The notes under the pieces are model-generated. The model did no database searches. It was given only the letters and a program-made list of their open reading frames with translations, and was not told the origin of the DNA. A DNA stretch of 46,301 nucleotides from Frankia tisae (GTDB lineage Bacteria; Actinomycetota; Actinomycetes; Frankiales; Frankiaceae): assembly GCF_025403405.1 (NCBI RefSeq), contig NZ_JANEZT010000003.1, positions 1 to 46,301 of the forward strand, read 5' to 3'. The first letter of the stretch is position 1. Each line of letters starts with the position of its first letter. Shown here in pieces: positions 10,834-31,024 of this stretch. The position numbers and the translations under genes were made by a program.

Positions 10834-11127
10834 GTGTGTCTCGCGGTTCCGGGACGGGTCGTCGCCATCGGGGAACGGGACGGCATCCCGATGGCCGAGG
10901 TGGATTTCGGGGGAGTGCGCAAGGACGTCTGCCTGCAGTACCTGCCGGACACCAGGATCGGCGAGTACGTGATCGTCCACGTCGGGTTCGCGCTCCAGCG
11001 GCTCGACGAGCAGTCCGCACTGGAGACGCTGGCCACCATCGCCCGGATGGGGCTGCTCGCCGAGGAATTCGGCGGTGGGTCGGGCCCGTCGGCCCGTGCC
11101 GCCCAGACGGAGGGGGTGAATCGGTGA
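10834..11127 (+). CDS. hypC: Hydrogenase assembly chaperone HypC
   Basis: A 97-aa protein starting [10 protein letters not shown]. Cys2 is the residue that carries the iron centre between HypD and the large subunit. The start codon is GTG at 10834, downstream of GAGGGGGTGAGCA. The C-terminal 20 residues are Gly/Ser-rich and probably flexible. Its stop overlaps the GTG of hypD by 4 nt, keeping the HypC and HypD partners coupled. A 64-nt gap from hypF is the largest spacing in the maturation half of the operon. Confidence 0.94.
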
Positions 11128-12269: not shown

Positions 12270-13314
12270 CCTCGCCGCCTGGACCTGTCCCGCCCCGCTG
12301 GCGGATTCCCCCACCATCGTCATGGGACATGGCGGCGGCGGCGCGATGTCCGCCGAGCTCGTCGAGCACCTGTTCCTGCCGGCGTTCCGGGACCCGGCCG
12401 CCGCGACCGAGCTGGGGGACGCCGCCGTTGTCGCGCTCGGCGGCGCGCGGGTGGCCTTCACCACCGACTCCTTCGTCGTGCGCCCCCTGTTCTTCCCCGG
12501 CGGCTGTATCGGTGACCTCGCGGTCAACGGAACTGTGAACGACCTGGCCATGGTGGGTGCGACACCGTGCTACCTGGCAACCGCCTTCATCCTGGAGGAG
12601 GGCACCGAGCTCGCCGAGCTCGGCAGGGTCGCCGAGGCTCTGGGCGCGGCGGCTCGGGTGGCCGGGGTCCGGCTCGTCACCGGGGACACGAAGGTCGTCG
12701 ACGCCGGCCACGGTGACCGGGTCTACATCAACACGACCGGCCTCGGGCTGGTTCCCGACGGCGTTGACATCAGACCGGGACGAGCCCGCCCGGGAGACGC
12801 CGTCCTCGTGAGCGGCGAGATCGGGGCGCATGGGATCGCCGTCCTCAGCTGCCGCGAGGGACTGGAGTTCTCGACGGAGGTCCACAGTGACACCGCGCCG
12901 CTGAATGGTCTCGTCGCCGCCATGCTCGACACCGGCGCGGACATCCACACGCTGCGCGACCCCACCCGTGGCGGCCTGGCCGCGACCCTCAACGAGATCG
13001 CGCGGGGTGCGCGGGTGGGGATCGCCGTCACCGAGCGGGCCGTCCCCGTGGCGCCTGCGGTCGCGGACGCCTGCAGCATCCTCGGGCTCGACCCGTTCGC
13101 CATCGCCAACGAGGGGAGACTCGTGGCCGTGGTGCCGGCGGCGGACGCCGATCGGGTGCTGGCGGTGATGCGGGCGCATCCGGACGGCCGGGACGCCACC
13201 GCGATCGGCACCGTCACCGAGGACAATGCGGGAATGGTGGTCGCCAGGACCGGGCTCGGTGGAACCCGCGTGATCGACCTGCCGATCGGCTCGGAGCTCC
13301 CGCGTATCTGCTGA
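12262..13314 (+). CDS. hypE: Hydrogenase expression/formation protein HypE
   Basis: A 350-aa AIR-synthase-fold enzyme that dehydrates its own carbamoylated C-terminal Cys to a thiocyanate, giving the cyanide ligands. The Gly-rich [10 protein letters not shown] motif, [24 protein letters not shown] and [16 protein letters not shown] are family signatures. The protein ends in PRIC, the diagnostic catalytic tail. The start is taken as GTG 12262 (VPDLAAW), giving an 8-nt overlap with hypD; a GTG further upstream would add only Arg/Pro-rich sequence. Last gene of the operon; no clear intrinsic terminator follows immediately. Confidence 0.95.
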
Positions 13315-17592: not shown

Positions 17593-18672
17593 ATGTACTT
17601 CTCCGCGAACTACGGTGAGGCACGAGAGCGTTTTCTCGCTGCGGCCCGCGATCGTGGCGCGCACCTCGAGTCGTTCCCCCTCGGGGAGCTGCGGGGGGCT
17701 CGGGACGAGCTGCTGAGCACGGACGTGGCCCGGATCGGCGCGAGCCGCGGGCCCTCCGTGCTCGTCCTGGTCAGCGGCACCCATGGCGCGGAGGGATTCG
17801 CCGGGTCGGCCTGTCAGCTTCGGGCCTTGCACGAGGCCGCGTGGACGGGCCTGCCGGTCGTCCTGGTGCACGCGCTCAACCCGTTCGGCTTCTCCCATCG
17901 TCGCCGGGTGAACGAGGACAACATCGACGTCAACCGCAACTTCGTCGACCACGCCGCCGTGCCGCCCGACGGCGGCTACGGCATGCTGCACTCCGCGTTG
18001 CTGCCCACAGACTGGGACGGTCCCGGGCACGCCGAGGCCGACGCCCTGCTCCTCGCGCATGCCGGCCGGCTCGGGGTGCGCGAGGTGCAGCAGATCGTCA
18101 CCTCCGGCCAGTACACCCATCCGGACGGGTTGTTCTACGGCGGTTCGGCGCCGAGCTGGTCCCACGAGACCTGGCACACGATCATCCGCGAGTACCTGAC
18201 GGGATACGAGCGGGTCGCATATGTCGACCTGCATACGGGGCTCGGCGAGCGGGCCGCTGCCGAGCCGATCTTCCGCGGTGGCCTGGACCCGGGCGCGCCG
18301 CGGCGGGCCCGAGCCTGGTACGGGGACGCGTTGACGAACTCCGAGGAGGGCACGTCGAGCTCGACGCCGATCGGCGGCAACTCCGCCCGAGCCCTGCTCC
18401 AGGACCTCGGTAAGGCGGAGATCACGGCCATCACCTGCGAGTTCGGCACCCAGGACGGGCTGACCGTGCTGCGCGCGCTGCAGGCGGACAACTGGCTCTG
18501 GCAGCAGCGTGAGCCGGTGGACGCCGAGCGGGTCGCCCGGATCGGGCAGCTCATGCGGGAGGCCTTCGACCCGCCGGACGAGCAGTGGCGCGCCGACGTG
18601 CTCGATCGAGGGACCGCCGTGATCGGCCAGGCCGCCGCCGGGGTGCTCGCCGAGTCGATCGGGACGGGCTGA
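17593..18672 (+). CDS. DUF2817 / M14-type zinc carboxypeptidase-like protein
   Basis: A 359-aa cytoplasmic protein of the DUF2817 family, related in fold to M14 carboxypeptidases and succinylglutamate-desuccinylase-type amidohydrolases. The zinc site is seen in SGTHGAEGFAG (HxxE) and in YVDLHTGLG (His). NEDNIDVNRNF is the conserved substrate-binding block, and CEFGTQDG carries a likely catalytic Glu. It probably removes an acyl or amino acid group from a small peptide or conjugate; the substrate is unknown. ATG 17593 follows AGGGGGGCAG. It is convergent with the aspartate-kinase-like gene. Confidence 0.88.
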   Translation: MYFSANYGEARERFLAAARDRGAHLESFPLGELRGARDELLSTDVARIGASRGPSVLVLVSGTHGAEGFAGSACQLRALHEAAWTGLPVVLVHALNPFGFSHRRRVNEDNIDVNRNFVDHAAVPPDGGYGMLHSALLPTDWDGPGHAEADALLLAHAGRLGVREVQQIVTSGQYTHPDGLFYGGSAPSWSHETWHTIIREYLTGYERVAYVDLHTGLGERAAAEPIFRGGLDPGAPRRARAWYGDALTNSEEGTSSSTPIGGNSARALLQDLGKAEITAITCEFGTQDGLTVLRALQADNWLWQQREPVDAERVARIGQLMREAFDPPDEQWRADVLDRGTAVIGQAAAGVLAESIGTG

Positions 18673-18711: not shown

Positions 18712-19893
18712 TTAAGCGGGTACGACCAGGTCGTGTTCGGCACGGGCCACGGCGGGTGCCTCGGCGGCGGGAACGAGGCGATGATGGAGCCGCCCGTCCG
18801 GGAACAGTGTGGTGACCAGGCGGAGGTCCGCCCGGTGCCGCAGTCCCCGGGGGCGCAGATCGCGCGCCGCGTCGGCGAGCACCAGATAGGCGACGGGGCC
18901 GCCGGCCGACTCCATGACGGCGCCGGTTGCCGCGATGTCGCCGGTTTCCGGGACGGCGGCAGTGTCCGGGACGGCGCCGGTTTCCGGGACGGCGACGGCG
19001 TCCGAGCCGAGCTCGGCCAACTCCGCCTGCGTCGCCTGAACAAGGTTCGGCTCGCCGGCCCAGACCGTGCCCGTGCCGTGCACCAGGACCGCGGCGGCGC
19101 TGGTCTGGGCGGCGCGGACGACCGAGTAGAGCCGACCGTCGGGCAGCAGGGAGCGGCAGCGGATCTCCACGCCGTGCCGGCGGGCCCAGTCGACGGCCGA
19201 GTGGTGGAGAACCTTCGCGCCGTGCCGCGACATCGTCATCATCGTGTCGTAGTCGATGGTGGCCAGCGTGCGCGCACTCGGCACGAGACGCGGATCGGCG
19301 GTGCAGATTCCCGGCGAGTCGGAGAAGATCTCGCAGGCGGGAGCGCCGATGGCGATCGCGGCCGCGATCGCGGACAGGTCCGAGCTGTTGCGGCCCATCA
19401 TGACCGGCCGCCCGTCGTCGCCGACGGCCTGCCCGCCGGGGACGACGAGCACCGTCCCGGCGGGGTCGATGCGGCTGGCGAGCGCGGTGGGGTCGAGCGA
19501 ACGCAGCTCGGCGTGGTGGGGATCGCCGGCACCGAGGAAGCCGGTGTCGGCCGCGGTCAACGGGACCGCGGCGAGCCCGGCGTCGCGCAGGGCGGAGGTC
19601 ATCAGTGCCACGTTGACGGTCTCGCCGGTCATGAGCGCGGCGGCGAGCAGGTCCCGGTCGGGCTCGGGGCTGACCGCGCGCAGCGCCCGGCCGAGCCGGT
19701 CGGTCTCGCCGGCCACCGCGCTGACCACGACGACGGCCCGGCCCGGGGCGTCCGCCGCACCGGTCGAGGGCTCGGAGCTGTCGGCGTGCAGACGGGCGGC
19801 GACGTGGCGGGCGATGAGGTGATGGGCGCCCGGCGCGGCGAACGCCGCCCCGCCGAACTTCAGGACGACGACGTCCCCCGGGCCGGTCACCAC
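18712..19893 (-). CDS. Aspartate-kinase-like protein lacking ACT domains
   Basis: A 393-aa amino acid kinase. The kinase fold is clear: VVLKFGGAAF at the start (KFGG motif), VSAVAGETDRLGR, MTGETVNVALM, GGQAVGDDGRPVMMGRNSSD, FSDSPGICTADPRLVP and RHGAKVLHHSAVDWA. GRNSSD and KFGGAA differ slightly from the usual GRGGSD and KFGGTS. After about residue 265 the paired ACT domains that bind lysine or threonine are absent. A low-complexity repeat (VAVPETGAVPDTAAVPETG) and an unrelated tail replace them. It may be a feedback-free enzyme supplying aspartyl phosphate to the neighbouring dehydrogenase. The start is one of two adjacent GTG codons at 19893/19890; it follows asd by 28 nt. Confidence 0.85.
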   Translation of the reverse strand: MVTGPGDVVVLKFGGAAFAAPGAHHLIARHVAARLHADSSEPSTGAADAPGRAVVVVSAVAGETDRLGRALRAVSPEPDRDLLAAALMTGETVNVALMTSALRDAGLAAVPLTAADTGFLGAGDPHHAELRSLDPTALASRIDPAGTVLVVPGGQAVGDDGRPVMMGRNSSDLSAIAAAIAIGAPACEIFSDSPGICTADPRLVPSARTLATIDYDTMMTMSRHGAKVLHHSAVDWARRHGVEIRCRSLLPDGRLYSVVRAAQTSAAAVLVHGTGTVWAGEPNLVQATQAELAELGSDAVAVPETGAVPDTAAVPETGDIAATGAVMESAGGPVAYLVLADAARDLRPRGLRHRADLRLVTTLFPDGRLHHRLVPAAEAPAVARAEHDLVVPA

Positions 19894-19921
19894 GATCTCG
19901 GCGTCGAGGGCGTCGAGGGCG

Positions 19922-20968
19922 TCACAGCCATGACATCTCGGCGGCCAGGCCCACGATCTGCAGGGCGTTGAGGGCCGCACCGACGGTGAGATTGTCGGCG
20001 ACGACCCACAGCCACAGGGCGCACGGGTCGTCGACGTCGGCCCGCACCCGCCCGACGTGGACGAGCCGGCGCTCGGTCGGCGACGAGCAGACCGGCTGCG
20101 GCATCGGGTAGCCATCCGCCGGGTCGTTGCCGTAGACCCGCAGGTCCGGGGCGGCTCGCAGCGCGGCGAGGGCGTCGTCGGGGGTGACGGGGGCGGTGAA
20201 GCTGACGTGCACCGCCTCCGAGTGGCCGTTGACCACGGGAACCCGCACCGCGGTCGCCGCGACCCGCAGCCCCGGCATGTCCATGATCTTGCGGGGTTCG
20301 CGACGTAGCTTGCGTTCCTCGTGGGAGTGCCCGTCGGCGTCGCGCAGGCCGATCTCGGGGATCAGGTTGAACGCCAGCGGCTGGCCGAACTTCCCGGGCC
20401 GGGCGTCGGCGGGATCGGCGCCGTCGAGCAGTGCCCGGGTGGTGCCGGCGAGCTCCTCCAGTCCCCGCAGGCCGCCGCCGGAGGCCGACTGGTAGCTGGA
20501 CACGATCACTCGGTCGAGCTCGCCGAGGGCGCGCAGGGGATGCAGGGCCCGCACGAGCTGGATCGTCGAGCAGTTCGGGTTGGCCACGATGCCGCGGGCC
20601 GGGCGCGAGCGCAGCGTCTGCGGGTTGACCTGGGGGACGACGAGCGGGACGTCGTCGTCCATCCGGAACGCGGAGCTGTTGTCGACGACGAGCGCGCCCG
20701 CGGCGGCGACCACCGGCGCCCACTGCGTGCTGATCGGGGCGCCCGCGCTGAACACCGCGACGTCCACCCCCGCGGGATCGAAGTCCGCCAGCGCGACGAC
20801 CGGCTCGACCTTCAGTTCCAGTCCCAGCTCGGCACCGAGATCGCGGCCCGCCGAGCCCCCCGACGCGACGGGAACGACCCGGCCCACGTCGGGCAGCAGT
20901 CCCGCCTCGAGCAGGGCCAGGCATTCCCGGCCGACGACCCCGGTCGCGCCGATGACGGCGATGTCCAC
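19922..20968 (-). CDS. asd: Aspartate-semialdehyde dehydrogenase
   Basis: A 348-aa NADPH-dependent enzyme reducing aspartyl-4-phosphate to aspartate-4-semialdehyde. The Rossmann motif IGATGVVGRECLALL opens the protein, the catalytic Cys is in NPNCSTIQL, and the substrate region VPVVNGHSEAVHVSF and C-terminal DNLTVGAALNALQ are family features. The start is GTG 20968 with a GGAAGGGG site. It sits at the end of a one-strand run with an oxidase, an SDR and the peptide gene, so this copy may serve a dedicated product rather than lysine and threonine supply. Whether the genome has another asd cannot be seen here. Confidence 0.94.
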   Translation of the reverse strand: MDIAVIGATGVVGRECLALLEAGLLPDVGRVVPVASGGSAGRDLGAELGLELKVEPVVALADFDPAGVDVAVFSAGAPISTQWAPVVAAAGALVVDNSSAFRMDDDVPLVVPQVNPQTLRSRPARGIVANPNCSTIQLVRALHPLRALGELDRVIVSSYQSASGGGLRGLEELAGTTRALLDGADPADARPGKFGQPLAFNLIPEIGLRDADGHSHEERKLRREPRKIMDMPGLRVAATAVRVPVVNGHSEAVHVSFTAPVTPDDALAALRAAPDLRVYGNDPADGYPMPQPVCSSPTERRLVHVGRVRADVDDPCALWLWVVADNLTVGAALNALQIVGLAAEMSWL

Positions 20969-21040
20969 TGCGCTTGTCCCCTTCCACCATGTTCCTGGTC
21001 CGCTGACCTGCTGGTCCGTCGACCTGCTGTCGTCGCGGGG

Positions 21041-21832
21041 TCAGCTGGAGCTGACGGTGTTCTCGTCCGCGAACTGCGCGTCGAGGTCCACCCAGCCGCC
21101 GTCGACGAACAGGACCTCGCCGTTGACGTAGGTGGCGGCGTCGGAGGCGAGGAAGACCGCGGGACCGGCGATTTCGGCGGGTCGGGCCCAGCGGCCGAGG
21201 GCGACCTTGTCGGCGTAGGCGCCGGCCCAGGCGGCGCTGGCGCGGATCGGCACCGTCAGCGCGGTCTCGACGGGGCCGGGGGCGATCGCGTTGACGCGGA
21301 CCCCGAACGGCCCGAGCTCGGCGGCCAGCACCCGGACCATCTGCGCCAGTGCCGCCTTCGTGCCCGCGTAGATCACCTGGCCGGGTTCGACCGCGCGGCT
21401 GCTGATCGACGAGATGACGATGATGCTTCCGCCGCCCTGCTTCGCCATGATCCGGCCGGCGCCGCGCAGGACGTGGAAGCTGCCGCGCAGGTTGACGTCG
21501 GTGACCGCGGTGTAGTCGTCGTCGGTGTAGTCGACCAGCGGCTTGCGGATGTTGATGCCGGGGGTGCCGACGGCGATGTCGAGGCGGCCCCGGTCCGCGA
21601 CCACGCGGGCGAACAGGTCGTCCACCTCGGCGGAGACGCGCACGTCGACGGTGGACGCCTTCGCGGTGCCACCGGCGGCGACGATGGTCGCCACCGTCTC
21701 CTCGACGCCGGTGGTGTCGACGTCAGCACATTCGACGACGGCGCCCTGTTCGGCCAGGGCGATCGCGATGGCCTGTCCGATGCCCGACGCCGCGCCGACG
21801 ACCGCCGCGACCCTGTCTGTCAGTTCCAGCAT
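21041..21832 (-). CDS. Short-chain dehydrogenase/reductase
   Basis: A 263-aa classical SDR. The cofactor motif is VGAASGIGQ (TGxxxGxG type), Asp in ADVDTTG suggests NAD(H) preference, and the catalytic residues are Ser in VISSISS with Y-x3-K in VIYAGTKAALAQ. The C-terminus has FLASDAATYVNGEVLFVDGGW. It likely oxidises or reduces a hydroxyl or carbonyl in the product of the surrounding locus; the substrate is unknown. Spaced 72 nt before asd and 66 nt after its upstream neighbour. Confidence 0.93.
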   Translation of the reverse strand: MLELTDRVAAVVGAASGIGQAIAIALAEQGAVVECADVDTTGVEETVATIVAAGGTAKASTVDVRVSAEVDDLFARVVADRGRLDIAVGTPGINIRKPLVDYTDDDYTAVTDVNLRGSFHVLRGAGRIMAKQGGGSIIVISSISSRAVEPGQVIYAGTKAALAQMVRVLAAELGPFGVRVNAIAPGPVETALTVPIRASAAWAGAYADKVALGRWARPAEIAGPAVFLASDAATYVNGEVLFVDGGWVDLDAQFADENTVSSS

Positions 21833-21898
21833 CTCCAGCTCCCGAAGCCTCGGTCTACGTGGTGGGTCCGCCGTGATCGGCGGGTGGGGGGTCGCCCG

Positions 21899-22705
21899 TC
21901 AGGGGGACGGCGTGGCTGCTGCCGGCGCCGACCCCGCCGCGCGGCGCAGGAAGTTCTCGACGATCGCGTCCACCGTCGCGGTCTCACGGATGTGCACGGC
22001 GCAGAGGATGCGGTCGCCGGGAACGGTGTGCCGCTCGAAGTGCTCGTTGACCGCCGCGTCGTCGCAGCGCGGACGGCTGAGGTAGAGCCCGCGCGGGACG
22101 CCGATCCCGGCGAGGCGGCCGCTGTCGGGATCGAACGGTGCCGCCGGGGCGAGCGTCGCCGCGATCTCGCCGGCCAACCGGGTCACGTCGGGGTCCTGGC
22201 CGCCCGGCCCGACCTCCGGGTACATCACGGCGCCGGGCAGCCGGCCGTAGGCCCGCATGGCGCAGTACGCGACCGGGTTGTAGGTGCGCAGCGCGGACAG
22301 TACCGGGAAGCCGCCGGTGACGACGGCGTCCTCGAGCAGCGCCAGCCAGCTCGTGCTGAACACCGGTCCGCGACGCAGCCGGGCGCTGACGAACTGCACG
22401 CCGATGTGGAGGAACCGCCGGCCGGCCGCGGTCGCCATCCAGCTCGCCCCCAGCACGGACACCGGCTGCCCGCTGGCCCGGTCGACGTTGACGACGAGAT
22501 GTTCGGCCTCGCGCAGCAGGCCGGGACGGGCGGCGAACAGCTCCGCCATCCGCAGGTCGGGCAGGGCCGCGACGAGCCCCTCCTGCAGCCAGCGGTCCTC
22601 CGCCGAGCCGAGCTCGCAGTCCTGGGAGAATCGGACGACTGCGTAGGGCTGCGAGGCCTCGGCTGCGGCGGCCGACGCGGCCGGCGGCGACGACATGGAC
22701 ATCAT
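21899..22705 (-). CDS. Unknown protein, possibly GNAT-like
   Basis: A 268-aa protein I do not recognise. There is no signal peptide or membrane helix. The central part (HLVVNVDRASGQPVSVLGAS, GRRFLHIGVQFV, then FPVLSALRTYNPVAYCAMR) has the rhythm of a GNAT-type acyltransferase: strands flanking a helix and an RT-x-NP-x-x-Y segment. No clear acetyl-CoA loop is visible. The C-terminal 25 residues are Ala/Pro-rich. Lying 40 nt after the diiron-oxidase gene and 66 nt before the SDR, it is probably part of the same pathway, perhaps as an acyl- or aminoacyl-transferase. Confidence 0.75.
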   Translation of the reverse strand: MMSMSSPPAASAAAAEASQPYAVVRFSQDCELGSAEDRWLQEGLVAALPDLRMAELFAARPGLLREAEHLVVNVDRASGQPVSVLGASWMATAAGRRFLHIGVQFVSARLRRGPVFSTSWLALLEDAVVTGGFPVLSALRTYNPVAYCAMRAYGRLPGAVMYPEVGPGGQDPDVTRLAGEIAATLAPAAPFDPDSGRLAGIGVPRGLYLSRPRCDDAAVNEHFERHTVPGDRILCAVHIRETATVDAIVENFLRRAAGSAPAAATPSP

Positions 22706-22745
22706 CTCCCCGTTCTGATGACCGTCGGTGCGGTGCCGGGATCGT

Positions 22746-23537
22746 TCAGGCGAACTTGGCCGCGACGCTGCCCGCGGCCTCGAACGCGCTGGTCGCCGGG
22801 GCCACCACCGCCTGGTAAAGCTCGATGAAGTAGGCCACCCACAGGTTCGCGACGGTCCGGATGTGCGCGAGCACCTTGGCCTCGTCGGCGGGCGAGGCCA
22901 CCAGCGAGGTGAGCACCCCCCAGACGAAGTCGGCGTGCTCGTCTTCGATGTCGGTGCCGACGTGGCGCCGGGCGCCGGCGAGTTTCTCCCGGCCGAGCTG
23001 CTCCTCCAGGTTCTTCACCCAGGACGGCTGGGTCTTCGTCGTCGTGTACTCGACGAAGTAGACGCTGCACAGCAGGGCCAGCGGGGTGCCCTCGAACTCC
23101 ATGCCGTACTGCAGGTAGCCGGTGAGCAGCTTGGTGGCCTGGAACGGCTCGGTGGCGTAGATCTCCGCCTTGGTCACGCCGACCTTCGCGAGGTCGCCGG
23201 CGAACCACTCGTCGTGGAGCATCTCGTCCTCGACGTAGTGGGCCCACGCCGCGCCGCGCACCGGGTCGCGCTTGGTGAAGTAGCCGATGGCCAGGGCGTC
23301 GATCGTGCGCTTGCGGCGCAGCCGGAGGATGGTCTCGACGTTGTGGCGCTTGTAGTACTCCAGGTTGATCTCTTCGCCGCGGGCCTGGTGGTCCGCGTAC
23401 GGGATCTCGTCGTAGAACTTCTTGATCATCGTGTCGAGCATGGTGTCGACCTGCGTGCGCAGGTCCGTCAGGTCAGCGGTGCGGGCGGCGGCGGCCGCCC
23501 TCGGGTCCCCGTACCAGGTGCGCGGGTCGTCGGTCAT
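22746..23537 (-). CDS. Haem-oxygenase-like diiron oxidase candidate
   Basis: A 263-aa all-helical protein of the TenA/PqqC/haem-oxygenase-like fold. Candidate metal ligands are the Glu and His in HYVEDEMLHDEW and the Asp/Glu and His in DIEDEHADFVW, plus an early Glu in QARGEEINLEYY. Members of this superfamily catalyse unusual N-oxygenation, desaturation or C-C cleavage of amino acid derivatives, often with diiron, while PqqC is cofactorless. Next to a short peptide gene and an aspartate-semialdehyde source, such chemistry on an amino acid or peptide is plausible. ATG 23537 has a GAAGGAG site. Confidence 0.82.
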   Translation of the reverse strand: MTDDPRTWYGDPRAAAAARTADLTDLRTQVDTMLDTMIKKFYDEIPYADHQARGEEINLEYYKRHNVETILRLRRKRTIDALAIGYFTKRDPVRGAAWAHYVEDEMLHDEWFAGDLAKVGVTKAEIYATEPFQATKLLTGYLQYGMEFEGTPLALLCSVYFVEYTTTKTQPSWVKNLEEQLGREKLAGARRHVGTDIEDEHADFVWGVLTSLVASPADEAKVLAHIRTVANLWVAYFIELYQAVVAPATSAFEAAGSVAAKFA

Positions 23538-23636
23538 CGGTGGGCTCCTTCGGCGGTGGGCGGTGTGCGGCCGGCTCGCCGAGGAATCGACGTGCCCGCG
23601 GCGGGCCGAGCCGTGGTGCTGCGCTGCCGCGGCCGG

Positions 23637-24710
23637 TCAGCAGCCGCAGGTCGGAGTGCGGCGCCGGCGCATCCGGCGCGGGGCGGGGCCGGCGAGCCGG
23701 GTCCCCGCCGGGTCGGACATGACCGTGTCGGCGCAGGTGAAGGTGAGCGCGTACCGGGTCGTCGGGGTCAACCCGAACCCGAGGTGGACGATCCCGTCGG
23801 CCGCGCCGTACATCTCGTTCATCCCGCAGTTCCCCGGCTGCTGGTCGAGCACGGGGTTGAGCCCGATGCCGAACTCCCACACGACCCGGTAGGCCTCGTC
23901 GGTGGCGAACAGCTCGTCCAGTGCGTCGACCGCGCGTTTGCCCGCGGCGTCCACCGCATGGCAGCCGGTGACCATGCCGTCGGCGAGGTCGAGCACCACC
24001 GTGGCGGTGCGCAGCACGTCCAGGTCGTCGAAGAGCCGGGCCTGCTCGGCGAGCACCGCGGGGTTGTCACCACGGTGCACGATGGGGGCGCCGCGCAGAG
24101 CGATCTGCCCGTCCAGCGCCAGCCGGCGGCTGGTGTCGAACCGGTAGAGGTCCGTGGGGACGGCGCTGGCCTCGCCGGACGGCGCGATCTGCTGTTCGCC
24201 GGCCGCGAGCGCGCCGGCCTGCTGGTTCCACTCGTAGTCGCCGGAGATGACGAAGCGGGCGGAGGCGTGCCCGGCGAGGTCCGCCAGCGTGACGTGGTCG
24301 GCCTCGCCGAGCGCGTCGAACAGCCGGTCCGCGCGGGACTCCAGCGCCACCGAGTCGGTCTGCTCCACCACCGTGAGGAAGTAGGCGACCTGGGAGTCGG
24401 TGACGGGCGTCGAGCCGCAGGGCATCACCGCGATCCGCCGGCCCGGCCCGACCGTCGTGGGGTCGGGGGAGACGAGGAAGCGGTCCGGGCAGACGACGAA
24501 CACGTCGGCGTCGGCGGGGATTCGCTGCGCGAGCAGGGCGTCGGTGAGGCTTTCCTCGGCGTCGAGGGTGCGGTGCACGACGCTGCGGTAGCGGCTGCTG
24601 GGCGCGAGGGTGAAGTCCGCGGCCCGGTCGGCCTGGGTCAGCAGGCAGAACGTGGAGTTCGGGCCGGCGAACTCCCGATGCAGGTCGGGACGCACGAGGA
24701 ACTGTGCCAT
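23637..24710 (-). CDS. M29-aminopeptidase-like protein A, ligand-depleted
   Basis: A 357-aa paralogue of protein B encoded at 25005-26096. Shared blocks are WNQQAG, GEQQIAPSGEASAVP (compare the M29 NxPxGE-x-x-x-xP motif) and VWEFGIGLNP. Aligned with B without gaps over the last 80 residues, it keeps Glu279, Glu299 and His309, but the H-x-D pair of B is A321/T323 (RYALTF). It has therefore probably lost part of the M29 dimetal site. The C-terminus is RRMRRRRTPTCGC, a basic tail with a CxC that could bind metal or a partner. It may be a non-hydrolytic partner or a repurposed enzyme. Start MAQFLVRP at 24710. Confidence 0.8.
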   Translation of the reverse strand: MAQFLVRPDLHREFAGPNSTFCLLTQADRAADFTLAPSSRYRSVVHRTLDAEESLTDALLAQRIPADADVFVVCPDRFLVSPDPTTVGPGRRIAVMPCGSTPVTDSQVAYFLTVVEQTDSVALESRADRLFDALGEADHVTLADLAGHASARFVISGDYEWNQQAGALAAGEQQIAPSGEASAVPTDLYRFDTSRRLALDGQIALRGAPIVHRGDNPAVLAEQARLFDDLDVLRTATVVLDLADGMVTGCHAVDAAGKRAVDALDELFATDEAYRVVWEFGIGLNPVLDQQPGNCGMNEMYGAADGIVHLGFGLTPTTRYALTFTCADTVMSDPAGTRLAGPAPRRMRRRRTPTCGC

Positions 24711-24816
24711 GGGGACCACCAGGGGGCGCGGCGCGAGAGGCTGGTTGGCGGGAGGACCGGGAGGACCGGGGCGGACCGGTGGCGGTGCGAACGCGGGCCG
24801 GGCGAGCGGCCCAGTC

Positions 24817-24850
24817 GGGGTGGGTCGGCCCGGTCCGGCCGACCCACCCC
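24817..24850 (-). terminator. 14-bp perfect hairpin after the peptide gene
   Basis: GGGGTGGGTCGGCC (24817-24830) and GGCCGACCCACCCC (24837-24850) form a perfect stem with a 6-nt loop. It begins 12 nt after the stop of the 23-residue peptide gene and lies before protein A. There is no T-tract on the - strand. Such hairpins can partially terminate or protect the 3' end of an abundant precursor mRNA relative to enzyme genes downstream. Confidence 0.7.
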
Positions 24851-24862
24851 TTCTCAACGGCA

Positions 24863-24934
24863 TTAGCCGAGGAGGGTGCCCAGGTAGCGGTCGTTCTTCT
24901 TCACCTGGATCTTCTTCTGCGCGACCTTCTCCAC
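24863..24934 (-). CDS. 23-residue peptide, candidate precursor or carrier
   Basis: A tiny gene read from GTG 24934 to TAA 24863. The peptide begins MEKVAQKKIQ, has a Lys-rich first half (six Lys in all) and ends RYLGTLLG. Upstream is AAGGAGGTGATC, a near-complete match to the 16S anti-Shine-Dalgarno, at 7-8 nt spacing; such a long match is rare and marks a strongly translated gene. It is flanked by two M29-like peptidase paralogues and followed by a strong hairpin. In size it is like PqqA and other minimal RiPP precursors, but no sequence match is claimed. It could be a modified precursor, a carrier peptide or a regulatory leader. A GTG nine bases earlier is in frame but sits inside the Shine-Dalgarno. 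Confidence 0.65.
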   Translation of the reverse strand: MEKVAQKKIQVKKNDRYLGTLLG

Positions 24935-25004
24935 AGTGATCACCTCCTTCCGTCAATCCGTTGGAATGCGGTGGACAGACGAGGGAGACCCTCGCCCGGA
25001 CCGA

Positions 25005-26096
25005 TCAGTTGGCCAAACCGACCGGACTCTTGAGGGGCATCGCGGACGTTACCGTCGGCGTGCCGAGCAGGACGTCGCCCAGATCGTTCGTGACGACTGT
25101 TCCCGGGGAAATGATGTCGAGATGGTACTGGGTGTAGGGCGTGAGCCCGATTCCCCAATGTAGACAGCCCTCGGAGGATCCGTAGACCTCGTTCATGGCG
25201 TGATTACCAGGAAGCAGATCGAGGGTGGTGTTCAGCGCGTGCCCGATTTCCCAGACTATGCGATAGCGGGAGTCGACTTGGAAGAGCGCCTCGAACATCT
25301 CCAGGATACCATGACCGGCGGGGTCGGGGGAAGTCATTTCGGTGATGAGACCGTTTTCGACCCGGGCCACGACCGCGTTCTCGTGCAGCGGCCAGAGTTC
25401 ACCGTGAATACGCTCCTGGTCGCGCCGGGAGAAGGACGGCGTGCCGGAATGCAGGATCGGGTATCCCTGGATCACGATCTCGCCGTCCAGGGGGAGCCGG
25501 AGATAGTCCCCGAACTCTCTGATCTCGATGGGAAGCACACTGATCTCGCCCGCGGGCACGATCTGCTGTTCGCCCCAGTCGACGAGACCGGCCTGCTGGT
25601 TCCACACCAGCTCGCGGTCGAACAGGCGCAGGGTCGCGGCCGTGCCGTGGCGCGCGTCGCGGTACTCCAGCGCCTCGCCGCGCTCGGCGAGCTCGAAGAA
25701 GCGGTCGGAGAAATCCTCCTGGGCCTGCGGATCGGTGGCCTCGACGCAGCGCAGGAAGTGCCGCAGCGTCGCGCGGTCGGTCGGGGTCGAGTTGCAGGCC
25801 ATCCCGAGCAGTTTGCGGCGGGGACCGAGGACGTCCACGGGCGGCGACTGAAAGAAGCAGTCGGGCGACATGACCAGCACATGGGCCTGTTCCGGCACTT
25901 CCTCACGCATGAGCCGGGCGAACTCATCCTCGCCACCGCGGAACTCCAGGATGCGGTAGTCCAGGTACTGGGCAGTCCGGACGAGCCGGATGTCGTCCAG
26001 CAGGGAGGCATTCGTGACGAGACAGAAGACGGTGTCGGTCGGATCCCCGAACTGTCGAATCCTGGCGGGATCGACGACGAGCTCGGACTCGGGCAT
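25005..26096 (-). CDS. M29-aminopeptidase-like protein B
   Basis: A 363-aa protein resembling M29 (AmpS/AmpT-type) metallo-aminopeptidases. The motif QQIVPAGEISVLP fits the M29 substrate-side NxPxGE block, and the dimetal ligands can be assigned: Glu283 (VWEIG), Glu303 (NEVYG), His313 (LHWGIG), a Tyr at about 321-324, and His325/Asp327 (YHLDI). All appear present, unlike in paralogue A. The likely role is trimming residues from the N-terminus of the adjacent 23-residue peptide or releasing a product from it. Start ATG 26096 has an AGGAGGAG site at good spacing; an in-frame ATG 24 nt upstream has none. Confidence 0.82.
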   Translation of the reverse strand: MPESELVVDPARIRQFGDPTDTVFCLVTNASLLDDIRLVRTAQYLDYRILEFRGGEDEFARLMREEVPEQAHVLVMSPDCFFQSPPVDVLGPRRKLLGMACNSTPTDRATLRHFLRCVEATDPQAQEDFSDRFFELAERGEALEYRDARHGTAATLRLFDRELVWNQQAGLVDWGEQQIVPAGEISVLPIEIREFGDYLRLPLDGEIVIQGYPILHSGTPSFSRRDQERIHGELWPLHENAVVARVENGLITEMTSPDPAGHGILEMFEALFQVDSRYRIVWEIGHALNTTLDLLPGNHAMNEVYGSSEGCLHWGIGLTPYTQYHLDIISPGTVVTNDLGDVLLGTPTVTSAMPLKSPVGLAN

Positions 26097-26188
26097 CTTT
26101 GTACTCCTCCTGACGCGCACGGGCCTGGGCTATGGATGCCGCGGGGCCGGTGGAATGTCGGACGAGGCCGGGCCGGATCGAGCGCCGG

Positions 26189-26209
26189 AAAAAGGTCCCA
26201 AAAGGGCCC
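26189..26209 (-). terminator. T-tract terminator or attenuator in the leader of gene B
   Basis: On the - strand GGGCCC-TTTT-GGGACC (one mismatch) is followed directly by TTTTT. Oligo-T after a GC stem is unusual in this GC-rich DNA, so an intrinsic terminator is likely. It lies 93 nt before the gene B start and downstream of the putative promoter, so it could end readthrough from the transporter genes or act as an attenuator. Confidence 0.55.
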
Positions 26210-26264
26210 AGAGAAGCCTCGTGAGGACGGCGCGCTGGTGCGTTGAGTTCCATGCCAGCGGGGT

Positions 26265-26281
26265 TTCGCGGTGACCGCGAA
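26265..26281. promoter_or_regulatory. 17-bp palindrome in the leader of gene B
   Basis: TTCGCGGT-G-ACCGCGAA is a perfect palindrome with a single central base, typical of a dimeric repressor operator, or of a hairpin in the leader RNA. Confidence 0.5.
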
Positions 26282-26309
26282 TGCCTTGGGAGGCGGCGCC
26301 CGACGCAAG

Positions 26310-26383
26310 CCGTGGACCGGACGGACTGCGGCGCCTGCCGATTTGGTCCGTGGACCGGAACGGACCGACAATGTGAAACTATA
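26310..26383 (-). promoter_or_regulatory. Putative promoter and direct repeats for the peptide operon
   Basis: A -10-like TATAGT reads on the - strand at 26383-26378; the matching -35 is poor (CTCACA at 18 nt), so an activator may be needed. Two near-identical copies of CCGTGGACCGG-ACGGAC lie just downstream at 26310-26326 and 26348-26365, the second with one extra A. The repeats could bind a regulator. The whole gap 26097-26438 holds no gene. Confidence 0.4.
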
Positions 26384-26438
26384 ACGTGCTCGGGGGTGGG
26401 CTGTGAGGTCTTTCGGAAAGATTCCCCGGGCGGCCGGA

Positions 26439-27314
26439 TTACTCCGGTCGTGGGATTGTCCTTGGACGGGCTCGGGGTTCAGGCTGCGGGTCAGACCAAG
26501 GCGCGGGGATCGGGACGCAGGTCCGCATCTCGCGCCGGTCGTAGCCGGGCGGCAGGGTCACGCCGGTGACGTGGACGGGCACGCCGTAGAGGTCACTGAG
26601 GCTCTCGCCGGTGACGACGTCGTCGGGATGACCGTCGGCGATCACCACCCCGTCGCGCATGAGCACCGCCCGGTTGGAGTAGGTGAGCGCATGCGACGGT
26701 TGGTGGGTGGTCATGATGACGGCATGCCCCTCCCGGGCGAGCTCGGCGACGACGTGCAGGGTGCGCACCTCGTTGCCGTAGTCCAGCGCGGCGGTCGGCT
26801 CGTCCAGGATGAGGATCGCCGCCTGTTGGACGAGCGCGCGGGCGAGCAGCACGAGCTGGCGCTCGCCACCCGACAGCGCAGCGAAGGACCGGTCGGCCAG
26901 GCGGGCGATCCCGAGCCGGTCGAGCTGGGCCAGGGCGCTGCGGCGATCGGCGGCGCCGGGCGCCTCGAGCAGGCCGAGATGGGGCGTGCGGCCCATGACG
27001 GCGATGTCGAGCGCGGTGAACGGGAACGGCGAGGAGGTGCTCTGCGGAACGTAGGCCACGCTGCGGGCGAGTTCCCGCGGCGCCAGTGTGCCGATGTCCC
27101 GCCCGGTGATGCGCACCGTGCCGCTTTCCGGCTTGAGTAGGCCGAGCAGGCAGCGCAGCAGAGTCGTCTTGCCGGCGCCGTTGGGCCCGAGCAGGCAGCA
27201 GACCTCGGTCGCGCGCACACTCAGCGAGACGTCGGTGATCCGGTGGCCGTGCCGGCCGTAGCCGAACGACAGCCCACTGACCTCGACGTCCGGCGTCTCG
27301 GTTGTCACAGCCAT
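26439..27314 (-). CDS. Iron-complex-type ABC transporter ATPase
   Basis: A 291-aa FecE/BtuD-type nucleotide-binding protein. Walker A is GPNGAGKTT, the Q-loop is in YVPQSTSSPF, the signature is LSGGERQLV, Walker B is ILILDEPTAALD, and the switch His is in TTHQPSHAL. It powers import of a metal chelate or corrinoid with the permease and binding protein encoded upstream on the same strand. The tail after about residue 270 is Pro/Arg-rich. It overlaps the permease gene by 10 nt, so the two are coupled. Confidence 0.95.
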   Translation of the reverse strand: MAVTTETPDVEVSGLSFGYGRHGHRITDVSLSVRATEVCCLLGPNGAGKTTLLRCLLGLLKPESGTVRITGRDIGTLAPRELARSVAYVPQSTSSPFPFTALDIAVMGRTPHLGLLEAPGAADRRSALAQLDRLGIARLADRSFAALSGGERQLVLLARALVQQAAILILDEPTAALDYGNEVRTLHVVAELAREGHAVIMTTHQPSHALTYSNRAVLMRDGVVIADGHPDDVVTGESLSDLYGVPVHVTGVTLPPGYDRREMRTCVPIPAPWSDPQPEPRARPRTIPRPE

Positions 27315-28522
27315 TGCCGGCCTGCCTTCGCGAGCAGGGCGACGAAGAACGGCGCGCCGATGAGTGCGGTGAGGATGCCCAGGGGGAGGTCGAGGGAGGA
27401 GGCGGTGCGGGCGACGTCGTCGACGGCGAGCAGGTAGCCGGCCCCGATGAGGGCGGTGACCGGCAGCAGCCGGTTGAACGACGGCCCGACGGCGAACCGG
27501 GCCAGGTGCGGGACGACGAGCCCCACCCAGCCGATGATGCCGGCGACGCTGACCGCGGTCGCCGTCATGAGCGTCGAGGCGCCGATCGTCAGTGCCCAGA
27601 TCCGCGTACGGTTGACGCCCAGCGACCGGGCTTCGTCGTCGCCGGTGGCGAGGACCGTCAGCTGCCAGCGCACCGCGTACAGGATCACCAGGCAGACCGC
27701 GACGATGATCGCGGGCACGATCAGCCCGTGCATGCTCGCCCGGGCCAGGCTGCCGAACAGCCAGAAGGTGATCTCCGGCAGGGTCGTCTCCGGGTTGGCG
27801 AAGTACTGCACGCTGGAGATGAGTGCGTTGAACATCGCGCCGATGATGATGCCGCCGAGCACCAGGATGATCAGCGATCCCTTCCCGACCACCCGGGAGA
27901 TGGTCAGCGACAGCACCGCGGCGAGCAACCCGCTGCCGAACGCGATGATCTGCAGCAGCGTCGTGTCCAGGCCGATGAGGATCGACACGGAGGCGCCGAA
28001 GCCGGCCCCCGCCGCCACCCCGAGGATCTCGGGGGAGACCAGCGGGTTGCGGAACATCGTCTGGTAGGCGGCGCCGGAGGAGGCCAGCGCCGCCCCGACG
28101 AGCAGCGCGGCGAGGATCCGGGGCATCCGGATGTCCATCACCACGGCCCGGTTCTGCCCGGGGACGTCGCCCCCGAGGCCGAACAGCTCGTGGGCGAGGA
28201 CGCGCACGACGCTCACCGGGCCCAGCGTGTACCGGCCCAGCCCGAAGGAGACCACGATCAGGACCAGCAGGCCCACGGCGAGCAGCACGACGCGCAGGTG
28301 ATCGCCGAGTGTCGCGCGGATCCGTGCGCTCGCGGCCGCCCGGGCACCGGGCCTGCGGTCCTGAACCGCCGGGTCACCGCCCTCGCCGACGCTCTCGACG
28401 ACACCTTGGTCGACGCGCTGGCCGATGACCCCGCCGGCATCCTGGTCGACGACCTCGCCGGCACCGTCCTGCTCGGTCGCCGGGACCGGGTCCGTGCCGG
28501 TCGGGACAGCGGGCCGGGTCAA
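27305..28522 (-). CDS. FecCD-family ABC transporter permease
   Basis: A 405-aa permease with about 9-10 membrane helices after a long hydrophilic N-terminus of about 75 residues (Asp/Glu/Gly-rich, unusual for the family and perhaps partly an over-long start). FecCD marks are RMPRILAALLVGAALASSGA, QTMFRNPLVSPEILGVAAGA, and GFVG-like GIIGWVGLVVPHLAR. Only one permease gene is present, so it would work as a homodimer like BtuC. It overlaps the LLM gene by 4 nt and the ATPase gene by 10 nt. Confidence 0.94.
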   Translation of the reverse strand: MTRPAVPTGTDPVPATEQDGAGEVVDQDAGGVIGQRVDQGVVESVGEGGDPAVQDRRPGARAAASARIRATLGDHLRVVLLAVGLLVLIVVSFGLGRYTLGPVSVVRVLAHELFGLGGDVPGQNRAVVMDIRMPRILAALLVGAALASSGAAYQTMFRNPLVSPEILGVAAGAGFGASVSILIGLDTTLLQIIAFGSGLLAAVLSLTISRVVGKGSLIILVLGGIIIGAMFNALISSVQYFANPETTLPEITFWLFGSLARASMHGLIVPAIIVAVCLVILYAVRWQLTVLATGDDEARSLGVNRTRIWALTIGASTLMTATAVSVAGIIGWVGLVVPHLARFAVGPSFNRLLPVTALIGAGYLLAVDDVARTASSLDLPLGILTALIGAPFFVALLAKAGRQWL

Positions 28523-29538
28523 GAGTTCACCCGCCGGATGGCGGGCTGCGCGAGCAGCGGCGCCACCTTCGCGGCGAACATCCGCACGGTGCTCTGCTGC
28601 AGGGCCAGCGATGCGGTTCCGCTGAACGACGGGCGCAGGTTCACCCGCTGCACGCCGAGCTCGTCGCGTAGTTCCGCGAATCTGCGGGCGACTGTTGCCG
28701 GTCCACCGATCACCGCTGTCTCCTCGTGAAACCGGAATGGGTCGAGGTCGGCCGTCCCGACGGCCTCGTGGCCGTGCTCGTCGCCGCCGAGTGCGGCCAG
28801 CCGCCGGGTCAGGCGCACGATGATCGGGGTGGCACGTTCCCGGGCGGCGGCATCGGACTCGGCGACGAGGCAGAACCTCTCCACCCGGACATCACCGGCC
28901 GTCCCGCCGTGGGAGGTGTAGAGCTCTATGCAGGTGGCGAGTGAGGCGACGGTCTGCACGGCCGACAGCAGCAGCCCGTAGCCGCGGCTGGCCGCCCAGA
29001 CGATGGTCTCGTCGCTGCTGGCGGCCACCTCGATCGGCGGGTGGGGATGCTGGGCGGGGGTCGGCTCGACCCGGAACTGCGCGCCGTCGGCCAGGCGGGT
29101 CCGGCCCCGCCAGTAGCCGACGATCGTGTCGAGGGCGTCGGGCAGGTCGACCCGGACCGGATCGGCGCCCTGGTAGGCCCTGGTGTAGGGGGCGATGGGC
29201 CAGCCGACCCCGAGGGTGACCCGGCCGCCGGAAAGCCGGTCGAGCGTCGCGAGGTCCGCCGCCAGCCGGATGGGGTCGTGCAGCGTCAGGTGCAGGGCGG
29301 TGAACCCGATCCGGATCCGGCTGGTCGACGCGGCGACGGCGGCCGCCAGCGGGATCGGTGAGGAGCGGGCTTTCATCGTCCGGGAACCGACGGAACTGAG
29401 GTGGCCGTCGGTGAACCACAGGCTGTCGTAGCCGAGAGCCTCGGCGACGCGGGCGAGTTCCACTGTCGAGGTGGAACTCGCCCCGTCGAGGTCGCCGCGC
29501 CCTCCGGGCAGGCCGAATCGCATGGAGATGGTCATCAC
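28519..29538 (-). CDS. LLM-class flavin-dependent oxidoreductase
   Basis: A 339-aa luciferase-like TIM-barrel enzyme using FMN or F420. Landmarks are MRFGLPGG, ARVAEALGYDSLWFTDGH, RIRIGFTALHLTLHDPIRLA, DRLSGGRVTLGVGWP and an ADL/FRFHEETAVIGGPATVA region near the C-terminus. It lies inside the transporter operon, overlapping the permease by 4 nt and 58 nt after the binding-protein gene. This suggests it acts on the imported ligand, for example by reducing or cleaving a metal chelate, or in making it. Family members span monooxygenases and F420 reductases, so the reaction is open. Confidence 0.9.
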   Translation of the reverse strand: MMTISMRFGLPGGRGDLDGASSTSTVELARVAEALGYDSLWFTDGHLSSVGSRTMKARSSPIPLAAAVAASTSRIRIGFTALHLTLHDPIRLAADLATLDRLSGGRVTLGVGWPIAPYTRAYQGADPVRVDLPDALDTIVGYWRGRTRLADGAQFRVEPTPAQHPHPPIEVAASSDETIVWAASRGYGLLLSAVQTVASLATCIELYTSHGGTAGDVRVERFCLVAESDAAARERATPIIVRLTRRLAALGGDEHGHEAVGTADLDPFRFHEETAVIGGPATVARRFAELRDELGVQRVNLRPSFSGTASLALQQSTVRMFAAKVAPLLAQPAIRRVNS

Positions 29539-29596
29539 TGCGCCGGGGCGCGGTCCTTTCCGAACCGAAAGAGGTGCCGATACCGGGATGAGGTAC

Positions 29597-30730
29597 TTAC
29601 TTGGAGCTGACCTGCAGGATCTGATCGAGATCCGCTTCAGTGGTGTGGTAGTTGAAAAACTTCGAGTAGAAGTTCTTGGTCTCGGATCGGATGTCGAGGT
29701 CGGTGAACAGATCAGGGTGCAGCACCTTCGCCGCCCACTGGATCTGCAGGGCCTCCTCCGGACCGAACCGGTCCCACGGGTAGAGACCCTGCGGGTTGAG
29801 ATAGACGCGACCGGCCTTGACCGCCTTCAGATCGGCCCACCCCGGCGACTTCGCCAGGTTGTCGATGACGGACTGGGCGGAGTTGGCCGCCAGGCCCTGG
29901 TCACCACCCGGTGTTTCGACGATCAGCACGTCCGGATTCCACTGCAGGAGCTGCTCCATCGACACCGTGACGTGGGTACCCTTGACGCCGCTCGCGGAGT
30001 CGGTGCCACCGGCGATCTTGATCCAGCCGTCGATGAGGGACTTCCCGCCGTCGACGACCACAGGCGGATAGCTGGCGATGTGCACCACGCTGGGCTGCTC
30101 GGTCGCTGGCAGCTTCGCCAGCCGGGACTGGACCATCGCCAGCTTGGCGGTCACGTAGTCGTTGTATGCCTTGGCCTTGGCGGCAGCGGCGCCGCCATAC
30201 ACCTTTCCGGCGAGCTGAATGGACGGGACCAGCTGCGGGAAGGTGTTGAAATCCATGTTGACCGCGGGCAGGCCGGCCTGCTGGAACGGCGTGAGGGTAT
30301 CGCCGCCGCTGATGGTGGAGACGACGTCCGGCTTGAGCTTGAGAAGCTCCTCCATGTTTACCTTGCCGCCGTTGCGGAAAAGTTCCGGAAGGCCGTTGAC
30401 GCCCGGGTAGACCTTCCGGAGGAACGGGATCGTCTTGACATTCTGGGGGATGGCCACCAGCTTGTCGCCGACGCCGAGCATGATGTCGGTGACAGTGTGG
30501 GCGGGGAACTGCTCCGCGATCCGGTTGATCTTCAGGGGGACCGTCACCTTCTCCCCGGAAAGGCTGGTCACCACCTGGGTGGTGGGCGCCGGCGGGCTGG
30601 CGTCCGAGGAGGAACTGCCGCAGCCGGCGGCCAGTGCCGCCACCGCGGCGGCCATCCCCAGGGTCAGCCACCGCCGCGACGCAGTGGGCCGGGCCAACCC
30701 GCGGGAACGCATTGTCACCGGTCCGGGCAT
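29597..30730 (-). CDS. Iron-complex-type substrate-binding lipoprotein
   Basis: A 377-aa periplasmic-binding protein of the Fe3+-siderophore/B12 class. With the start at 30730 (MPGPVTMRSRG) it has an SRRWLTLG n-region, a hydrophobic stretch and the lipobox LAAGC with lipid-modified Cys37, then a Ser-rich linker. The fold is suggested by DKLVAIPQNV, LKPDVVSTISGGD, WNPDVLIVETPGG and GPEEALQIQWAAKVLHPDLF. It captures the ligand for the permease/ATPase pair. Starts at 30712 or further upstream remain possible; a TTG at 30886 adds an Arg/Ser-rich extension and is unlikely. Confidence 0.92.
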   Translation of the reverse strand: MPGPVTMRSRGLARPTASRRWLTLGMAAAVAALAAGCGSSSSDASPPAPTTQVVTSLSGEKVTVPLKINRIAEQFPAHTVTDIMLGVGDKLVAIPQNVKTIPFLRKVYPGVNGLPELFRNGGKVNMEELLKLKPDVVSTISGGDTLTPFQQAGLPAVNMDFNTFPQLVPSIQLAGKVYGGAAAAKAKAYNDYVTAKLAMVQSRLAKLPATEQPSVVHIASYPPVVVDGGKSLIDGWIKIAGGTDSASGVKGTHVTVSMEQLLQWNPDVLIVETPGGDQGLAANSAQSVIDNLAKSPGWADLKAVKAGRVYLNPQGLYPWDRFGPEEALQIQWAAKVLHPDLFTDLDIRSETKNFYSKFFNYHTTEADLDQILQVSSK

Positions 30731-30995
30731 GCTCGTGCGCCCGCTTCCCGAGTGGCGTTCGACGGACGGGAGATGGGACGAGCTGTGAGGACCGTCCCGA
30801 TGGGTCGGCAAACCCACGAGGATGCGTCGCGAAAACAGTGCCGAGCGTGATGCCACGTTCTTCCCCCGCCGGGCGAATAGAGTCAAGGAAACAAATGGTG
30901 ATTAGCTGCGCACGGACGGTGTGCGCTGGGTGCTAACTGCGAGCGAGCGCGCGATGCTTCGGCGCATCTGAGACCCGCGGAAGCGGATGGAATGC

Positions 30996-31024
30996 ACCAT
31001 AGCCTCCGCATCTGCGTCTGTCAC
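30996..31024 (-). promoter_or_regulatory. Housekeeping-type promoter for the transporter operon
   Basis: On the - strand GTGACA (31024-31019) and TATGGT (31001-30996) are separated by exactly 17 nt, a good primary-sigma promoter. The imperfect palindrome ATGG-N6-CCAT (30987-31000) overlaps the -10, a natural position for a repressor. The predicted transcript has a leader of about 260 nt. Confidence 0.5.

Follow-up and report, generated by a model that had tools for sequence, protein, structure and literature searches.

A tiny selected peptide beside a protein of no assigned family: a candidate RiPP-like pathway in Frankia tisae and its relatives

Introduction

What does a run of twelve co-oriented genes make when it sets an aspartate branch, a haem-oxygenase-like oxidase, a tiny peptide, and an importer side by side? 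The question arises in Frankia tisae, within a 46,301-nt stretch of DNA (71% G+C; hereafter the window, meaning the whole stretch analyzed) on one contig of a 7.07-Mb draft assembly, where all 12 genes lie on the minus strand from 18712 to ~30.9 kb. An earlier note on this DNA had described this twelve-gene, single-strand arrangement correctly and took the locus for a possible peptide-based metallophore or cofactor pathway, an interpretation that is partly supported by the analysis reported here.

We read the locus as a peptide-dependent biosynthetic cluster of an undescribed class, in which a route resembling that of ribosomally synthesized and post-translationally modified peptides (RiPPs) would lead to a small modified amino-acid product; we place this account slightly on the favorable side of even. 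Directly observed are the linkage of the genes, selection on the peptide, conservation of the oxidase ligands, and a minimal version consisting of peptide, MA, and exporter. MA and its homologue MB are the two proteins previously called M29-like (1 and 2), renamed here because their relation to M29 has no statistical support.

Results

A selected peptide accompanies MA

Scanning 84,980 species genomes with two short motif patterns from the MA alignment returned 141 stretches, 48 of which encode MA relatives; because the scan relied on two patterns, only close relatives of MA are detected. Peptides ending in KN..YLGTLLG are encoded at 46 of these 48 loci, in actinobacteria and proteobacteria alike; at the other two, the contig ends right after MA (L058) or MA is degraded (L091). 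Among the strongest MA matches from two genome samples—the class, and the genus of genome G129—the peptide is present at 21 of 21 loci. Its length ranges from 16 to 29 residues across loci, with an invariant C-terminus, and 10 of the 48 MA loci carry two to four tandem copies.

The window's own peptide gene lies between MA and MB, with the ribosome site AAGGAGG placed 8 nt upstream of the GTG that opens MEKVAQKKIQVKKNDRYLGTLLG. Frankiaceae relatives encode the identical peptide or, in three genomes, MEQ(Q)KKI[QN]VKKNDRYLGTLLG; the proteobacterial peptides have 16 residues (MKNRKKNAEYLGTLLG, MKQRKKNAQYLGTLLG, and MKNRKKNDAYLGTLLG). The gene sits between MA and MB in actinobacteria and before MA in proteobacteria. 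Pairwise comparison of 24 distinct DNA versions counted 90, 0, and 1130 differences at the first, second, and third positions of the nine fixed codons, with zero amino-acid changes; all changes are silent, so by its substitution pattern the peptide is a translated sequence under amino-acid selection. This selection, together with the linkage to MA at 46 of 48 loci, bears out the earlier suggestion of a peptide-based, undescribed pathway.

A stem-loop follows the last peptide copy with z ≤ −1.5, scored against mononucleotide shuffles, in 22 of the 24 loci chosen for this test (L060 and L084 fall below the criterion). A comparable hairpin appears in one of nine gaps between tandem copies, gaps that measure only 22–50 bases. 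The hairpin is terminator-like in Acinetobacter and precedes the MA and AzlC genes in proteobacteria; for the window and four relatives, no Rfam family matched at the gathering score.

Other short open reading frames (ORFs), ending KYGKYDRL[EQ]G or RYGAYVNLQG, adjoin distant MA relatives in Streptomyces (L174:8745-10038, L155, L156). The L174 copy, on a plasmid, has 24–31% identity and is neighbored by a radical SAM protein, an adenylation-domain protein, and nonribosomal peptide synthetase genes.

The locus and its gene set

In minus-strand order from ~30.9 kb downward, the locus encodes a substrate-binding lipoprotein (SBP), an LLM-class oxidoreductase, a FecCD permease, an ABC ATPase, MA, the tiny peptide, and MB, followed down to 18712 by the haem-oxygenase-like oxidase (HDO), a GNAT-like protein, a short-chain dehydrogenase/reductase (SDR), aspartate-semialdehyde dehydrogenase (asd), and an aspartate-kinase-like protein. 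The features are as follows.

16226..17524, plus strand: MFS transporter, syntenic in most Frankiaceae loci; outside the twelve-gene run
17593..18672, plus strand: DUF2817 protein with weak AspA-like/M14 resemblance, a member of the conserved module; outside the twelve-gene run
18712..19890, minus strand: aspartate-kinase-like protein, catalytic domain only, GTG start chosen by eye (Pfam/NCBIfam)
19922..20968, minus strand: asd, one of two copies in the assembly (TIGR01296, 326.7 bits against the asd_B cut-off of 324.2)
21041..21832, minus strand: SDR (Pfam)
21899..22705, minus strand: protein conserved beside HDO, with the look of a GNAT-type acyltransferase by eye only (no family match)
22746..23537, minus strand: HDO, a haem-oxygenase-like diiron oxidase homologous to MboA, six iron ligands present (Pfam, profile, and alignment)
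23637..24710, minus strand: MB, a degenerate MA homologue with the HxD pair lost and a C-terminal CGC tail (sequence comparison)
24817..24850, minus strand: long stem-loop directly 3' of the peptide gene (sequence, with similar stems in relatives)
24863..24934, minus strand: tiny peptide gene, 23 codons, GTG start, MEKVAQKKIQVKKNDRYLGTLLG (sequence, conservation, and silent substitutions)
25005..26096, minus strand: MA, adjoining the peptide gene (no family; conserved residues)
26439..27314, minus strand: importer ATPase of corrinoid/haem/siderophore type (Pfam/NCBIfam)
27305..28522, minus strand: FecCD-type permease (Pfam/NCBIfam)
28519..29538, minus strand: LLM-class oxidoreductase, Bac_luciferase (Pfam/NCBIfam)
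29597..30730, minus strand: SBP (Peripla_BP_2), likely ATG at 30730 by eye; the longest ORF extends to 30886

Pfam matches among the locus genes are AA_kinase, Semialdhyde_dh, SDR families, ABC_tran, FecCD, Bac_luciferase, Peripla_BP_2, and, for the oxidase, Haem_oxygenas_2 (32.5 bits; cut-off 28.9). These families agree with the labels previously given to the kinase-like protein, asd, SDR, oxidase, importer, and LLM protein. MA, MB, and the GNAT-like protein matched no Pfam or NCBIfam model at E 0.01, in keeping with the idea of an undescribed pathway. Elsewhere in the window, positions 600-13300 of the plus strand appear by eye to encode a [NiFe] hydrogenase together with hyp maturation genes, which have no bearing on the locus.

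Three layouts share a peptide–MA core

For the oxidase loci outside Frankiaceae we compared flanks of 0.5–10 kb, two loci reaching less than 3 kb on one side, and absences from those loci refer to these flanks. Gene order in 11 other Frankiaceae loci is that of the window as far as the contigs reach, and the recurring gene set is therefore more than chance. Across the 12 Frankiaceae loci including the window, the permease, ATPase, and LLM genes are present in all 12, the oxidase and GNAT-like genes in 11, SBP in 10 (cut by a contig end in L042 and absent from L041), SDR, asd, and kinase in 10, and DUF2817 and MFS in 8. Most of these misses are contig ends: L032, L036, and L037 are shortened in this way, and L041 has no SBP, DUF2817, or MFS gene beside the locus.

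Outside Frankiaceae, all 23 actinobacterial loci with the oxidase contain MA, the peptide, MB, the oxidase, the GNAT-like gene, and DUF2817; the oxidase and GNAT-like genes are divergent in Nocardia. Accessory genes recur less evenly—ATP-grasp in 19 of the 23, Fe-dependent alcohol dehydrogenase and aldehyde dehydrogenase in 16 each, asd in 8, kinase in 7, and SDR in 1—and the FecCD permease, SBP, and LLM genes occur in none. The importer thus separates from the biosynthetic genes outside Frankiaceae; inside the family, its permease and ATPase stay linked with LLM in every locus, so that the separation by which the earlier note had proposed to judge its pathway is found in one group and not in the other.

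Nine Streptomyces-type loci without the oxidase form a second layout, with MA, two to four peptides, a more distant partner that we call MC, and an S9 peptidase; the oxidase profile has no match in six of their genomes and a match in three. The third is proteobacterial: five loci, Noviherbaspirillum and Acinetobacter rudis among the carriers, with the peptide, MA, and AzlC (recognized by Pfam in one locus, by similarity in the rest), an AzlD-like ORF in all three examined, and no oxidase-profile match in the four genomes and one plasmid record concerned. Compared across these three layouts, the peptide–MA pair is the smallest recurring core, joined in proteobacteria by an amino-acid exporter.

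Among 35 Frankiaceae genomes, 16 have an MA match. The class yields matches in 17 of 393 genomes, all but one of the 17 being Frankiaceae, and G129's genus in 16 of 246, nine of these strong. Three Frankiaceae genomes hold incomplete versions of the locus (L043, L044, and L046), which consist of MB with an MA fragment, MB alone, or an MB piece with asd, kinase, DUF2817, and MFS; the peptide is absent from all three.

MA and MB form an uneven pair

The window's MA is 97% identical to that of Frankia gtarii. Numbered on the 357-aa stretch 25005-26078, residues E178, E277, H307, H319, and D321 are kept in 32 of 32 aligned rows. Eight MB proteins retain the first of these site residues in six cases, the second in all eight, the third in seven, and the HxD pair in none; three MC proteins keep only the H307 position. 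In 35 of 35 oxidase-type loci, the final 20 residues of MB include a CGC motif (the L093 MB ends GCGCH), and those of MC do so in 9 of 9. On MA, a CxC tail is found in 0 of 28 actinobacterial rows and in 5 of 5 proteobacterial proteins (four rows plus the Paraburkholderia MA), and no MB was seen in the proteobacterial loci with a CxC-tailed MA. Each system examined thus has one CxC tail, on MB or MC or on MA itself. The TldD/TldE protease pair, which acts on ribosomal peptides, likewise combines one active subunit with a homologous subunit whose metal site is degenerate and would be a parallel to MA–MB; no CxC tail is known there.

The M29 peptidase label did not survive: similarity of the two proteins to Peptidase_M29 is not significant. 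In a Pfam scan, that family matched 1 of 32 homologues (E 0.15); the family profile ranks six of 2000 shuffles above the better of two M29-family proteins; searches of solved structures and profile–profile comparison returned no significant match; and the M29-like motif order E, E, H, HxD in MA agrees by eye only.

The oxidase retains the diiron site of MboA

With an HDO profile, the best solved relative is MboA (PDB 9YPI, E 2.2e-23). The window HDO keeps the equivalents of the MboA ligands E86, H89, E143, H172, D176, and H181, together with D90 and Tyr82, as do seven further HDO homologues, and the six-ligand 3-His/3-carboxylate set with MboA spacing is invariant in 20 of 20 aligned sequences. 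The MboA-type recognition of an arginine side chain is not retained in the window HDO, which keeps one of the three contacts (Asp61) and carries Asn57→Lys and Asp139→Val, a pattern shared with three actinobacterial relatives. Judged by its ligand set, the chemistry of HDO may be desaturation; arginine would not be the expected substrate, because two of its three contacts are replaced, and an acidic or neutral side chain would go well with the added lysine.

A self-sacrificing tyrosine, as CADD is said to use, is disfavored: HDO resembles MboA. CADD itself is mentioned in PMC13108848. In the genomes or records examined that have both peptide and MA, five proteobacterial and six of Streptomyces type, the HDO profile has no match. 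An oxidase search of the 393 class genomes gave a match in 18; in four of these, all Frankiaceae, the copies were exclusively weaker and more distant.

The MboA report describes how a tripeptide, its carboxylate bound to the iron, has its C-terminal arginine converted to an alkyne, and the building of mangotoxin from free amino acids by ATP-grasp ligases rather than from a ribosomal peptide (PMC13185094). The mangotoxin genes (mboABCDEF) are likened to the locus by its clear MboA homologue, in which the six iron ligands, Asp90, and the Tyr82 base all recur, and by an ATP-grasp gene nearby in 19 of the 23 relatives outside Frankia; they differ in that no MboB- or MboE-type domain was found among the window genes scanned and in the replaced arginine-binding residues (MboA Asn57 and Asp139; Lys and Val in the window). 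The thiovarsolin cluster (varA–varO) brings a ribosomal precursor together with an HDO (VarO), ATP-grasp, and MFS genes (PMC6511847), and VarO is a precedent for such an oxidase alongside a ribosomal peptide. It differs from the locus in that no YcaO or TfuA domain lies among the window genes and no MA or MB counterpart is among the var genes named in the text consulted (PMC6511847). Pearlins such as 3-thiaglutamate resemble the proposed pathway in making a small amino-acid-like product on a ribosomal carrier peptide (PMC9303977, PMC9016710); in contrast, the locus genes, DUF2817, and MFS contain no LanB-like peptide aminoacyl-tRNA ligase domain, and the locus peptides have 16–29 residues with an invariant C-terminus, vs. 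50 for TglA.

Related oxidases also lie on plasmids. An Enterobacter chuandaensis plasmid (L175:3978-16215) encodes an oxidase (56%), GNAT-like, DUF2817, and MFS proteins, an aminotransferase, and another HDO-like protein, along with an ORF of 15 codons that has a ribosome site, and an IS903-type transposase adjoins the cluster; MA and the YLGTLL motif are absent from the 20.7 kb of this plasmid that the analysis covered. On pBPHY02 of Paraburkholderia phymatum (L178:7983-11233), nif and nod genes flank an MboA-like oxidase and two ATP-grasp genes, and similar oxidase matches occur on plasmids of P. sabiae and P. phenoliruptrix. Plasmids of Burkholderia stagnalis (L176) and Streptomyces cyaneofuscatus (L177) carry an MboA-like oxidase, a 2Fe-2S protein, two ATP-grasp proteins, and an annotated biotin carboxylase.

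A second aspartate set and the importer

Besides the cluster genes, the assembly has a single further kinase match (39%) and a single further asd (49%), which are neighbors on contig 80; the kinase–asd pair of the cluster is therefore a second set in the genome, and the aspartate branch named by the earlier note stands as gene content. Pfam reports only the catalytic domain of the cluster kinase, with no ACT domain. In the LysW system, a kinase and an asd reportedly act on a peptide carboxylate; such a role was set aside here, as the window asd passes the true-asd cut-off. SBP scores below the curated cut-off of every ligand-specific model.

Discussion

A proposed route

In the route that we infer, the peptide would serve as substrate or scaffold, and the order of steps, the accessory roles, and the nature of the product would run as follows. 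The tiny basic peptide would be made by the ribosome, probably in excess, since its gene has a good ribosome site, is followed by a stem-loop, and is present in tandem copies in relatives. The MA–MB pair, with a putative metal site in one subunit and a dithiol CGC tail on the degenerate other, would bind the invariant KN..YLGTLLG C-terminus and perform the defining step there, after which the MboA-type diiron oxidase would desaturate the C-terminal or a peptide-released amino-acid residue. The GNAT-like and DUF2817 proteins could protect and release this residue by acylation and hydrolysis, while kinase, asd, and SDR would provide an aspartate-semialdehyde-derived unit. The small amino-acid-like product would be exported by MFS—by AzlCD in the proteobacterial version—and in Frankiaceae the FecCD-type importer would take back the product or a complex of it.

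The minimal cassette of peptide, MA, and AzlC in five loci favors this route, and several points weigh against it. A short ORF with a hairpin before an amino-acid exporter gene, as in proteobacteria, also fits a regulatory leader; HDO, GNAT-like, and DUF2817 genes occur with neither MA nor peptide in the 20.7 kb of the Enterobacter plasmid, and the oxidase module therefore need not act on the peptide; kinase and asd are found within the flanks of only 7 and 8 of the 23 oxidase loci outside Frankia; and the Frankiaceae locus L041 lacks SBP, DUF2817, and MFS alongside. Enzyme roles and product are, moreover, read from the genes, and the reaction given to MA is a guess, because no known family is significantly related to it.

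Alternatives

If the peptide were instead a regulatory leader, acting by ribosome arrest or attenuation, it would sense an amino acid or the product and control the downstream genes, and the rest would be an ordinary amino-acid pathway that includes a diiron oxidase. That the fixed residues lie at the C-terminus fits such a leader, as does the hairpin after the peptide, terminator-like in Acinetobacter and upstream of MA–AzlC in proteobacteria. We nevertheless consider it unlikely: two to four tandem copies occur with no comparable hairpin in eight of nine gaps (all short), the peptide changes place from between MA and MB in actinobacteria to before MA in proteobacteria, distant MA relatives adjoin other short ORFs with a similar ending, and no Rfam leader reached the gathering score in the window and four relatives. 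Similarly improbable, in our judgment, is a permanent small subunit or activator of the MA–MB enzyme that is not consumed as substrate or scaffold; a C-terminus nearly invariant across phyla would be expected of a binding element, and no variable core is visible, but the stem-loop and the repeated gene copies point to consumption or to a high stoichiometry.

The metallophore or metal-cofactor pathway with its own importer, the idea of the earlier note, draws on the linkage of FecCD-type permease, ATPase, and LLM in all 12 Frankiaceae MA loci including the window. It lost its leading place because only Frankiaceae loci were found to have the importer; within the flanks compared, permease, SBP, and LLM are missing from all 23 oxidase loci elsewhere, SBP has no specific ligand match, and the minimal version, with AzlC as its exporter, suggests a small amino-acid-like product. 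Such a pathway now seems very unlikely to us, and the idea of a metal-binding product is not supported.

Class and wider meaning

A RiPP is recognized by a translated precursor beside modifying enzymes; here, the peptide gene is conserved, selected, and adjoins MA, whose modification of it is putative. Among Pfam and NCBIfam matches we found no known RiPP class-defining enzyme—only general families, with no lanthipeptide, YcaO, or radical-SAM domain—and the locus would on these grounds be a RiPP-like pathway whose class-defining enzyme has no assigned family. Searches of open-licence PubMed Central returned no paper for the peptide words, for combinations of a precursor peptide, HDO, and aspartate genes, or for DUF2817 with a biosynthetic gene cluster.

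More tentatively, and with the balance of our judgment leaning the other way, MA-type proteins could be a widespread, so far unrecognized class of enzymes for which tiny ribosomal peptides with a fixed C-terminus serve as substrate or carrier; small amino-acid-like metabolites would be made in this way, with the help of a CxC dithiol tail. A peptide, one enzyme, and an amino-acid exporter would then be enough in proteobacteria, and in actinobacteria an acetylenase-type diiron oxidase and a unit derived from aspartate would serve to elaborate the product, for instance into an unsaturated four-carbon amino acid.

Should the peptide be a substrate or scaffold, the locus would represent a new class of chemistry on ribosomal peptides that has an enzyme family to itself, spread over Actinobacteria and Proteobacteria, and one easily missed because its peptide gene has 16–29 codons and none of the curated families searched matches its enzymes. 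The small proteobacterial cassette, with one 16-residue peptide and one enzyme, makes the idea directly testable, and the oxidase would be a likely source of unsaturated amino acids.

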